Origin: Mesorhizobium sp. B2-4-15
Lineage (GTDB): Bacteria; Pseudomonadota; Alphaproteobacteria; Rhizobiales; Rhizobiaceae
Assembly: GCF_006658505.1 (NCBI RefSeq)
Contig: NZ_VFUZ01000010.1
Coordinates: 62,001-126,000, forward strand
Length of the DNA stretch: 64,000 nt
Direction: 5' to 3'
Shown: positions 22,180 through 59,114 of the stretch, piece after piece
Layout: each line of letters starts with the position of its first letter
Position numbering within the stretch: the stretch's first letter is position 1
Program-made: the position numbers and the translations under genes
Notes under the pieces: model-generated
Database searches by the model: none
The model's input: the letters and a program-made list of their open reading frames with translations, nothing else
Told to the model about the DNA's origin: nothing

Positions 22180-22330
22180 TCCCTTCTCCCCTTGTGGGAG
22201 AAGGTGGCCGAGCGAAGCTCGGTCGGATGAGGGGTGCTCCAGAAAGCACCGATGTCTCATTCCTTCCAGCACCCCTCAACCGTCTCGGTGCTGTGCGCCG
22301 ATCCACCTTCTCCCACAAGGGGAGAAGGAA
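22180..22330. repeat. paired inverted repeat, family B copy 1
   Basis: Arm 1 (22180-22242) and arm 2 (22268-22330) are near-complementary, each holding a CTCCC-TTGTGGGAG hairpin core and a GGTGGCCGAGCGAAGCTCGG or complementary block. The whole can fold into one long cruciform. A second copy is at 23791-23944. Confidence 0.8.
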
Positions 22331-29182: not shown

Positions 29183-29286
29183 GAAAACCGTCCCAGAAAG
29201 ATTTGAACCGGCGCTTTGCTAAACGCCAAGTGATTGCGGCGCAAGGGGATGACTGGTGCGAAGCACCAATCGCCTTGATCCTTCGC

Positions 29287-29441
29287 GCCCCCCTCTGGCC
29301 TGCCGGCCATCTCCCCCACTTGGGGGGAGATCAGACTTCACGCCGCCTTTCGCAATCTCGAACCTTGCAGGGATGCGCGAGGCGTCGAAACAGCCAATCT
29401 CCCCCCAAGCGGGGGAGATGCCCGGCAGGGCAGAGGGGGGC
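29287..29441. repeat. paired inverted repeat, family C copy 1
   Basis: Arms 29287-29332 and 29398-29441 share CCTCTGGCC-type and CTCCCCC-hairpin modules (for example GGGGGAGATGCCCGGCAGGG) in opposite orientation. They fill the leuB-VOC gap. Other copies are at 30338-30492, 58957-59106 and a variant at 39357-39500. Confidence 0.8.
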
Positions 29442-29479
29442 GCTGTCCCGCCGGCGTCTCGCGAGAAACCCGTGGGCGC

Positions 29480-30337: not shown

Positions 30338-30492
30338 CCCCCCCTCTGGCCTGCCGGCCATCTCCCCCGCAAGGGGGGAGATCCCGCACTCGACAGATTT
30401 CGCTACTCTCCAGCGTTGCTGGAACGAGCGGAGCGCCGGATCTGCCGATCTCCCCCCTTGCGGGGGAGATGCCCGGCAGGGCAGAGGGGGGT
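30338..30492. repeat. paired inverted repeat, family C copy 2
   Basis: Arms 30338-30383 and 30448-30492 have CCCCTCTGGCCTGCCGGCCA and GATGCCCGGCAGGGCAGAGG as complementary ends, each with an internal short hairpin. This explains most of the 359-nt gap between the RidA gene and the hypothetical gene. Confidence 0.85.
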
Positions 30493-39201: not shown

Positions 39202-39356
39202 GCCGCCTGTCTGGCAGGCCGGCGGGGAGGCGGCAGGGCGGATCCGAGGAGGTTTTCGGCAATCGCGTGCAGTTTTCGTGCAGGGTCGAGGCGACGTTTG
39301 TCGTTCGAAAAGCCAAGCAATTGGCTTTTCGTCCGCTGCGCGGACCACTTCTCAAC

Positions 39357-39500
39357 TCCCCGTATAGGGACGGGGAGAGGGCCGCTGTCGCGATCATTTC
39401 GCCAATCGCCTACGCTGAAGAACAAGCGCCGAGGCCGAAACTGCCCCTTTCTCCCCGTCCCTATACGGGGAGAAATGCCCGGCAGGGCAATGAGGGGCGG
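39357..39500. repeat. paired inverted repeat, family C variant
   Basis: Arms CTCCCCGTATAGGGACGGGG (39357-39376) and CCCCGTCCCTATACGGGGAG (39452-39471) pair with each other. The outer part GAAATGCCCGGCAGGGCAAT recalls the family C outer arm. It sits in the 530-nt gap before the citE-like gene. Confidence 0.7.
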
Positions 39501-55878: not shown

Positions 55879-57258
55879 ATGGGCGAACACATCATCAAGC
55901 TGCCCGATGTCGGCGAGGGCGTGGCCGAGGCCGAGCTCGTCGAATGGCACGTCAAGGTTGGCGACATCGTGCGCGAGGACACGGTGCTCGCCGCCGTCAT
56001 GACCGACAAGGCGACGGTCGAGATTCCGTCGCCCGTCGATGGCGAGATCCTGTGGCTGGGCGCCGAGATCGGCGACACCGTGGCCATTGGCTCGCCCATC
56101 GTGCGGCTGAAGGTGGCGGGCGAGGGGAATGTGAAAGCGGAAGGCGCGAAATCGCCGGAGGTTACGGCGACACCTACCCCCACCCCTAACCCCTCCCCAC
56201 AAGGGGGAGGGGAACGCGTTTCGGCTCCCAAGGTCGAAGCAAAGCGCGCGCCACCGTCATCCGCGAATCCAAGAAACGATGACGTTGGAGCGGCTGTGAC
56301 CGAATCCCCCTCCCCCTTGTGGGGAGGGGTTAGGGGTGGGGGTACTGCGACGGTGGGCGCGCCGCGCCCGGAGGGCGAAAAGCCGTTGGCGTCGCCAGCC
56401 GTCCGGCTGCGCGCGAAAGAGGCCGGCATCGATCTCAGGCAGGTTGTGGGAAGCGGCCCGGCCGGACGCATCGGCCATGAGGATATCGAGGCGTTCCTGG
56501 CACGCGGGCCGCAAATGGCCAAGGCATCGGGCCTTGCCCGCAACGATGCTGTCGAGGACATCAAGGTGGTTGGGCTTCGGCGAAAGATCGCCGAGAAGAT
56601 GACGCTGTCCAAATCGCGCATCCCGCACATCACCTATGTCGAGGAGATCGACGTCACCGCGCTGGAAGAGCTGCGCGCCGCGCTCAACAAGGAAAAACGC
56701 CCTGCCAAGGCGGGCGCGGAAAGGCCGAAACTGACGCTGCTCCCCTTCCTGATGCGGGCGATGGTCAGGGCGATAGCGGATCAGCCCCAGCTCAATTCGC
56801 TGTTCGACGACGAGGCCGGTGTCATCCATCAGCATGGTGGCATTCATATCGGCATCGCCGCGCAGACGCCGTCCGGACTGGTGGTGCCGGTGGTCAAGCA
56901 TGCCGAGGCGCGCGACATCTGGGAGTGCGGCGCCGAGGTCGCCAGGCTGGCCGAGGCGGCCAAGTCCGGCACGGCGACACGCGACGAGCTGTCCGGCTCG
57001 ACCATCACCATCACCTCACTCGGCGCCATGGGCGGTGTCGCGACGACGCCCGTCATCAATCACCCCGAGGTGGCGATCATCGGCGTCAACAAGATGATGG
57101 TGCGGCCGGTATGGGACGGCACGCAGTTCATCCCACGCAAGATGATGAACCTGTCGTCCAGCTTCGACCATCGCGTCATCGACGGCTGGGACGCGGCCGT
57201 CTTCATCCAGCGTATCAAGACGCTGCTGGAAACGCCGGCGCTGATCTTCGTGGATTAG
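55879..57258 (+). CDS. bkdB: branched-chain 2-oxoacid dehydrogenase E2 (lipoamide acyltransferase)
   Basis: 459 residues. The lipoyl domain is at 1-78 with lipoyl-Lys in VMTDKATVEI (K44). A linker of about 80 residues includes the in-frame repeat element (residues about 99-155: TPTPNPSPQGGG and SPSPLWGGVRGGG). The E1/E3-binding domain is at about 170-210 (ASPAVRLRAKEAGIDLRQV, GPAGRIGHEDIEAFL). The catalytic acyltransferase is at 235-459, with SFDHRVIDGWDAA (His near 431). GGGGGAGG lies before the ATG. Confidence 0.96.
   Translation: MGEHIIKLPDVGEGVAEAELVEWHVKVGDIVREDTVLAAVMTDKATVEIPSPVDGEILWLGAEIGDTVAIGSPIVRLKVAGEGNVKAEGAKSPEVTATPTPTPNPSPQGGGERVSAPKVEAKRAPPSSANPRNDDVGAAVTESPSPLWGGVRGGGTATVGAPRPEGEKPLASPAVRLRAKEAGIDLRQVVGSGPAGRIGHEDIEAFLARGPQMAKASGLARNDAVEDIKVVGLRRKIAEKMTLSKSRIPHITYVEEIDVTALEELRAALNKEKRPAKAGAERPKLTLLPFLMRAMVRAIADQPQLNSLFDDEAGVIHQHGGIHIGIAAQTPSGLVVPVVKHAEARDIWECGAEVARLAEAAKSGTATRDELSGSTITITSLGAMGGVATTPVINHPEVAIIGVNKMMVRPVWDGTQFIPRKMMNLSSSFDHRVIDGWDAAVFIQRIKTLLETPALIFVD
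56175..56344. repeat. perfect 38-bp inverted pair (family D) inside the E2 coding sequence
   Basis: Arm 1 56175-56212 and arm 2 56307-56344 are exact reverse complements over 38 nt, separated by 94 nt. Each arm has an internal hairpin around CCCCACAAGGGG. The pair is in frame and adds Pro/Gly-rich residues to the linker. Confidence 0.9.
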
Positions 57259-57287
57259 GTTTATGGATACGGACGCTGTCCCCTTAC

Positions 57288-57450
57288 CTTCGTCATCCTC
57301 GGGCTTGACCCGAGGATCCATGCCGCGACCTCGGCCGAGGCGCGCAGCACAACAGAATTCTGGACCGTTGCAACGCCTTGACGTAACGGCATGGATCCCG
57401 GGGTCTGCGCGCGTCGCTACGCTCCTTGCTCCGCCCCAGGATGACGAAAG
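57288..57450. repeat. dispersed inverted-pair repeat, family E copy 2
   Basis: Starts TTCGTCATCCTCGGGCTTGA with ACCCGAGGATCCATGCCG and ends with GCATGGATCCCGGGGTCTGC and CCAGGATGACGAAA. The ends are complementary; it fills the gap between the E2 and E3 genes. Confidence 0.8.
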
Positions 57451-57522
57451 TACGAACGCCTCCGCCAATCTCCAACATAGGCGCTGCGCTCCCAAGGCAC
57501 CGCGACCGATCGAGGTGCCAAG

Positions 57523-58917: not shown

Positions 58918-58956
58918 GTGCAGCAATGTCCTGCAGGTCCGTCCTCGGAGCGCGTG

Positions 58957-59106
58957 ATCTCCCCCCTCGAGGGGGAGATGGCCGGCAGGCCAGAGGGGGT
59001 CGGTTCGACGGGATGCGACCTCTAGCGACCGATAGAGGCCGGCGCTCCACGCGCGGGAACCCCCCTCTGTCGCCTTCGGCGACATCTCCCCCTCAAGGAG
59101 GGAGAT
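58957..59106. repeat. paired inverted repeat, family C copy 3
   Basis: Arms 58957-59000 (CTCCCCCCTCGAGGGGGAGA, then GGCCGGCAGGCCAGAGGGGG) and 59060-59106 (reverse orientation) lie between convergent bkd and saccharopine-dehydrogenase-like genes. Confidence 0.8.
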
Positions 59107-59114
59107 TACGCGCC

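Follow-up and report, generated by a model that had tools for sequence, protein, structure and literature searches.

Rickettsia palindromic elements (RPEs) are repeats of about 100-150 bp that occur in several families and lie in frame within conserved protein genes, as described in the excerpts consulted of three reports (PMC2229807, PMC10969869 and PMC3733652). According to the consulted part of a 2024 review (PMC10969869), in-frame palindromes are unusually frequent in Rickettsia, which have small intracellular genomes; the string 'rhizob' is absent from the main text of that review. The CGTC REPs have a CGTC head, a stem of 8-9 bp starting with AT and a loop of 4-5 nt, and REPs inside open reading frames are known from several species (both in excerpts of PMC3733652). 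In alphaproteobacteria, the CIRs consist of two self-folding arms with TA ends and a GANTC motif, and in the sections of PMC2229807 that deal with them they are said to be absent from genes and to carry stops in all frames. The enterobacterial elements RU-1/ERIC, RU-2 and RU-3 are MITE-like, carry open frames and occur inside genes, as far as excerpts of PMC2759123 and PMC2229807 describe them.

Here, a stretch of 64,000 nucleotides from Mesorhizobium sp. B2-4-15, referred to as the window, was analyzed together with related genomes. The results argue, with a probability of roughly 80%, that MITE/REP-like palindromes are captured and turned over in frame in free-living rhizobia, in a manner comparable to RPEs. 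This reading is directly supported by dispersed copies, by their in-frame position, by presence and absence among relatives, by several families occurring in one linker, by a clean empty site in an epimerase gene and by arms that are conserved as DNA and not as protein. No report of such captures in Mesorhizobium or other rhizobia was found among the matches listed in the literature searched, a weak negative with most subscription journals outside its scope.

The palindrome in the E2 gene and its dispersed copies

An E2 acyltransferase gene of 459 aa is located at 55879-57258 on the forward strand; E1-alpha-like and E1-beta-like genes lie before it and a dihydrolipoyl dehydrogenase gene after it. 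A repeat search of the window recovered the perfect inverted repeat that the initial annotation had described at 56175-56344, with arms of 38 nt each at 56175-56212 and 56307-56344 (both forward strand), 100% complementary and 94 nt apart. Pfam recognizes a Biotin_lipoyl domain (residues 6-77), an E3_binding domain (169-204) and the catalytic 2-oxoacid_dh domain (224-457). The arms correspond to residues 99-156 and thus lie, as had been claimed, in frame between the lipoyl and peripheral-subunit-binding domains. The left arm encodes TPTPNPSPQGGG; the right arm, its exact reverse complement, encodes PSPLWGGVRGGG. The gene had been named bkdB (E2). The Pfam domains bear out the E2 assignment but not the gene name: among these neighboring genes and the E2, only dihydrolipoyl dehydrogenase scores above an NCBIfam cut-off and the E2 is below every cut-off, so 'bkd' stays a name of the initial annotation. 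An AlphaFold2 model of the E2 (30 sequences) was poor, with a mean pLDDT of 50.5 and a lipoyl domain as low as the linker, and is uninformative on disorder.

Since the E2 linkers of relatives are generally Pro/Ala-rich, chance or codon bias might have made an inverted repeat out of a low-complexity Pro/Gly linker, or the repeat might be an assembly error, but the probability of this is negligible. When the gene was codon-shuffled 200 times and arms up to 250 nt apart were allowed, the longest perfect inverted repeat reached 15 nt (mean 9.7), against the 38 nt observed. Codon usage points the same way, as the Gly and Pro codons of the arms are rare in neighboring genes: GGC makes up 0 of 8 Gly codons in the arms versus 75% in these genes, and CCG 0 of 6 Pro codons versus 61%; the Thr and Ser codons are not unusual. 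An origin by chance or codon bias was rejected on these two grounds. In addition, the same sequence is found at intergenic sites and in the E2 gene of single-contig chromosomes, such as those of G090 and NZ_CP080525.1.

Each arm contains its own short hairpin (CCCCTCCCC / GGGGAGGGG) with a C-rich tail, and the unit is therefore a hairpin pair in inverted order. The arm reads TACCCCC...GGGGAGGGG, and the whole unit of 170 nt has TA at its start and at its end. The motif GAATC (GANTC, the CcrM methylation motif) adjoins the right arm at 56302-56306 on the forward strand. Of the 31 E2 linkers with this element, hereafter the A element, 21 have TA at both ends and 22 have a GANTC no more than 8 nt from the right arm, the window's linker being included in both counts. 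The A element has the terminal inverted repeats and the many non-autonomous copies by which MITEs are recognized. It also resembles the CIRs, compared by description and not by sequence, in arms that fold alone, TA at both ends, GANTC and an alphaproteobacterial host. In contrast to the CIRs, which are described as intergenic only and as having stops in all frames, A-type copies lie in frame in the E2 and in an epimerase. The A element lacks the CGTC or GTAG end of CGTC/GTAG REPs. With REPIN/RAYT (PMC3116915), it shares the arrangement of two REP-like hairpins in inverted order as one unit, but a RAYT-type transposase was not found in the host genome. The RAYT family (PF01797, Y1_Tnp) has 0 matches there, versus matches in 5 of 14 control genomes, and RAYT mobilization in the host was rejected. 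From RU-1/ERIC, RU-2 and RU-3, the element differs in sequence and host, and a swap of families at one site is not described in the parts consulted of the sources on them. An assignment to an Rfam family was also rejected, as the one match is below threshold and lies away from the element, at 58961-59102.

Within the window, the 30-nt arm core (at most 3 mismatches) matches only the two E2 arms, and shuffled sequences gave no match. In the host genome, a draft of 6.09 Mb in 61 contigs scored as 100% complete, it matches seven places, two of them in the E2, while the control gave 0. Intergenic copies exist, in line with the look of a dispersed element ascribed to the arms in the initial annotation. 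A looser hairpin core yielded 49 forward and 56 reverse matches versus 6 and 4 in the reversed control, counts in which a single palindrome may score on both strands. The other genomic copies share the layout of the E2 element but differ in their spacers. The 36-nt arm (at most 3 mismatches) is present in 32 of 99 genomes of the genus, and all controls were zero. G041 and G075 contain 75 and 67 arm matches, the next genome in the sample having 15, which suggests that the arm family recently expanded in these two. In a plasmid collection, eight records matched over at most 38% of the query, and no annotated features lay under the plasmid matches among those listed. When the encoded peptides were searched for in the literature, none of the matches listed was relevant.

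Further repeats are present around the gene. Intergenic inverted repeats of the CGTC type lie 3' of the E2 gene at 57285-57452 (inverted pairs 57285/57433 and 57307/57380) and are of the same type as the palindrome that replaces the A element in E2 linkers of other species. Five more inverted hairpin pairs of related but distinct types were observed in the window, at 22182-22328, 29285-29443, 30339-30491, 39356-39472 and 58950-59113.

Linker states in relatives and their history

The comparison of E2 genes covered 80 named loci plus those from 93 of the 99 genus genomes (all but G013, G019, G042, G059, G066 and G067), which together give 173 loci and 126 distinct genes, the window's included. 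The linker states were assigned by a fuzzy pattern, so that badly decayed copies are scored as none: 86 genes have no element, 31 have the A element, eight have another palindrome, termed B, and one has an A element with a broken frame. Three Microvirga genes are among those without a palindrome by this pattern. The initial annotation had named two observations that would speak against its reading, namely that no other copy existed in the genome or that all relatives, including distant genera, shared the repeats; neither was made, and its view of a mobile-like palindrome inside a coding gene is supported.

The A element ranges from Mesorhizobium to Pseudaminobacter (L076, with a decayed left arm) and Aminobacter (L086). 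In the gene with the broken frame (L210, G030:C1:6304400-6306400, in a 7.2-Mb contig), both arms are present and the frame is broken near the left arm, because of which the pattern itself scores it as none; it may be a real pseudogene or reflect a sequencing error at C/G runs. In two assemblies, G013 and G019, the E2 is split between contigs at the linker. The B element, found in eight linkers, reads CGTC-ATCCTCGGG-CTTGT-CCCGAGGAT in L049 and others. By eye, its CGTC head, 9-bp stem starting with AT and 5-nt loop agree with the description of CGTC REPs, as does the intergenic copy at 57285-57452. Five of the 31 A carriers (L013, L015, L031, L089 and L114) have a third repeat nested within their left arm, and no relative in the genus sample is nearer than L089, with 97% identity. 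This nested repeat is itself dispersed in 14 of the 19 genomes searched, with a control of 0.

In a tree of the E2 gene alone, built without the linker from 124 of the 126 genes (L017 and L210 dropped), the three states are interleaved and require at least 24 changes, a count that recombination inside the gene can inflate. In 500 shuffles, the mean was 34.7 and the minimum 29, indicating that the linker state partly tracks ancestry but changes often. Collapsing weak nodes gave 27 changes, not fewer. Well-supported sister genes differ in state, with L018 carrying A and L175 none (support 0.997), and L019 carrying A and L049 B (0.95). The 94-nt spacer between the arms (56213-56306 in the window, forward strand) evolves fast and is homologous in most A-type linkers. 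Among the core A linkers, spacers are alike (276 pairs, median z 6.3, 91% above 3), compared with a median z of 1.5 and 12% above 3 against genomic spacers, of which four copies were used. Most A linkers therefore appear to descend from one captured copy and to have been exchanged or replaced later. Spacer homology was not demonstrated for L055 and L086, and the signal in L171 and L173 is weak, so that more than one capture is possible. An alignable empty site for the E2 insertion was not found among the relatives, as the element-free linkers are too diverged to align.

The homologous spacers of the core carriers, the strongly supported sisters that differ in state and the occurrence of the nested repeat in five scattered species would also fit a history in which whole linker alleles were merely exchanged by recombination, with no recent insertion of a palindrome at the E2 linker. 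This is possible, at clearly less than even odds. The presence of the B family and of the nested repeat in the same linker requires at least two more insertions, and exchange at the E2 leaves the other affected genes unexplained. A recent sweep of a single linker allele was rejected, as the spacers have diverged (in an ungapped comparison over 30 nt, which may overstate divergence) and the arms have not.

Conservation of the arms at the DNA level

Divergence was calculated from 23 of the 31 A sequences and arm covariation from 24, gapped or very diverged arms being dropped. At fourfold sites (253 pairs), the arms differ by 0.075 and the gene by 0.294, meaning that the arms evolve about four times slower than the gene at silent sites. 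Across 41 gene windows of the same length, the lowest value is 0.139, still above that of the arms. The codon positions 1 and 2 give 0.070 for the arms and 0.061 for the gene. These figures show that the arms are conserved as DNA, with no sign of conservation at the protein level.

A functional role could account for this pattern if the arms were selected for a structure formed by the DNA or RNA, such as a hairpin in the mRNA that delays the ribosome between domains, so that the palindrome would be a working part and not a tolerated passenger. Silent-site conservation beyond all 41 gene windows would be expected from it, as would the extreme predicted RNA fold of the element (z -12), but every perfect inverted repeat of 38 nt folds this way. 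The two copies in the E2 are the sole arm copies (at most 3 mismatches) in G060 and G097, which also suits selection in place. However, the left and right arms do not covary in the 19 core sequences (42 mismatches versus 44.2 expected, p 0.21), on which ground compensatory pairing between the arms was rejected, and 86 of the 126 genes lack the element. Selection for structure is considered improbable.

Homogenization by other copies is a possible cause of the arm conservation. Gene conversion with dispersed members of the family would make both function and common descent unnecessary, and most carrier genomes listed do hold further copies. Over all 24 sequences the arms are coupled (60 mismatches versus 69.7 expected, p 0.006), mainly by one loop base (position 24), which the two arms share in 23 of the 24 sequences, a point in favor of conversion. 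On the other hand, G060, G097 and G015 have no arm copy outside the E2 (at most 3 mismatches) and their arms are still near the family sequence. Gene conversion is rated as unlikely, though less so than selection for structure.

In-frame capture in other genes and its significance

The host genome was scanned in 17 regions, a part of all looser-core places, which were picked before their genes were viewed and exclude the window's E2. Six of 20 element clusters lie in frame in recognizable genes, by family matches: a second E2, CobN, UvrD, a hydantoinase, an NAD-epimerase-like gene and, with a family match on one side only and hence probably, FtsY. Ten open frames over copies were scanned per genome; the four others of the host have no family match and are probably spurious. 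In G041, five of 23 clusters (20 regions) fall in recognized families, namely a sulfite-reductase-like protein, XdhC, an amine oxidase, a DNA ligase (TIGR04120, above cut-off) and a phosphonate-binding protein, the last with a match on one side only; the five other open frames scanned there have no family match and are probably spurious as well. A further hairpin was observed at 1991-2010 of L270 (G041:C1:218200-222200), in an open frame at the C-terminal end of a CobN-like reading.

The insert in UvrD comprises 58 residues where the solved homolog 3lfu has 4, and that in the hydantoinase 54 residues where 7hk5 has 11. A clean empty site is available for the epimerase: 30 loci were read in a search of 41 genomes, and the span between two conserved motifs is 94 residues in G000 (the host) and G020 and 27-34 in 27 other loci. 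The remaining locus, in G017, is cut by a contig end and partially matches the insert, which it may also carry. The epimerase is the only gene for which an insertion is shown against an empty site.

Other sites are occupied by different kinds of insert. Every one of the 30 UvrD loci read carries sequence at the same site, which is PLEGEVPAKRAEG-like in eight, ISPLEGEMSGRTEGG-like in five and SAEGRKPDRAS-like in 17. The second kind has a significant inverted repeat (15 nt) in L328. The first kind, which is the host's own, has none in L224 although it was located via the hairpin pattern, and the third has none in the four tested and is not termed a palindrome. Besides this UvrD insert of the host, those in linker 2 of the second E2 and in FtsY likewise had no significant inverted repeat when tested on their own. 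For the second E2, 30 loci were fetched, of which four gave no reading and one was another gene; judged by peptide, a repeat-like sequence occupies linker 1 in 25 of the 25 readable loci and linker 2 in 11. Also, CobN in L223 has a second, different insert with a 41-nt perfect inverted repeat. This insert and those of UvrD in L328 and L338 are of another type (ISPLEGEMSGRTEGG / SPLAGEMSGRTEGGG) that resembles the pairs at 29285 and 30339 in the window. The filled and swapped sites in UvrD and the second E2 indicate that the E2 linker belongs to a set of several sites at which such repeats are taken up, lost and swapped.

Based on these comparisons, the following course of events is proposed. 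The element would be MITE/REP-like selfish DNA made of two inverted hairpin arms, a variable spacer and TA ends, a non-autonomous unit that is presumably inserted by a transposase acting in trans. The survivors would be insertions that keep the frame at a tolerant site, such as the inter-domain linker of the E2. The E2 frame stays open because the two-arm unit has one stop-free frame, which encodes a Pro/Gly/Ser-rich, linker-like peptide. Most carrier linkers may derive from one old capture; the linker would later have been exchanged, lost, replaced by a CGTC REP pair or invaded by the third repeat, with recombination spreading or replacing the filled linker. The same process of capture would act on other genes of these genomes. 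Four points in this account are inferred: that a transposase mobilizes the element in trans, that the enzyme tolerates the block, that the peptide is expressed, and in which order the changes at the E2 site took place.

The comparison with Rickettsia drawn in the initial annotation holds in kind, as palindromic repeats of several families lie in frame within conserved protein genes in both. The present families are other sequences, likened to RPEs by description only, and the host genus is free-living with large genomes; in addition, one linker holds different families across species, and the silent-site conservation of the arms has been measured. The initial annotation understated the case, since the same linker hosts another family in other species, further genes of the genome carry inserts, and conservation of the arms is at the level of DNA and not of protein. 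A bolder version, which is tentative and rather unlikely, is that recurrent capture sites in conserved proteins swap selfish palindrome families in frame and that the captured arms come under selection at the DNA or RNA level, persisting in the gene after close intergenic copies are gone. If so, one stretch would be a palindromic element and a protein linker at once.

For annotation, such repeats are relevant as they make odd peptides inside real proteins, and in G013 and G019 the gene is split at the linker. The most interesting part is the DNA-level conservation of the arms inside a coding sequence. The presence, absence and swapping of repeats over about a hundred genomes offer a comparative system for the sites that accept selfish DNA, the neutrality of the encoded peptides and the silent-site conservation of the arms. 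With similar in-frame repeats in several conserved genes, selfish DNA has seemingly been made into parts of proteins repeatedly. The preferred reading would thus place an RPE-like phenomenon, with several families and genes including two E2 subunits, UvrD and CobN, in the large genomes of free-living rhizobia.
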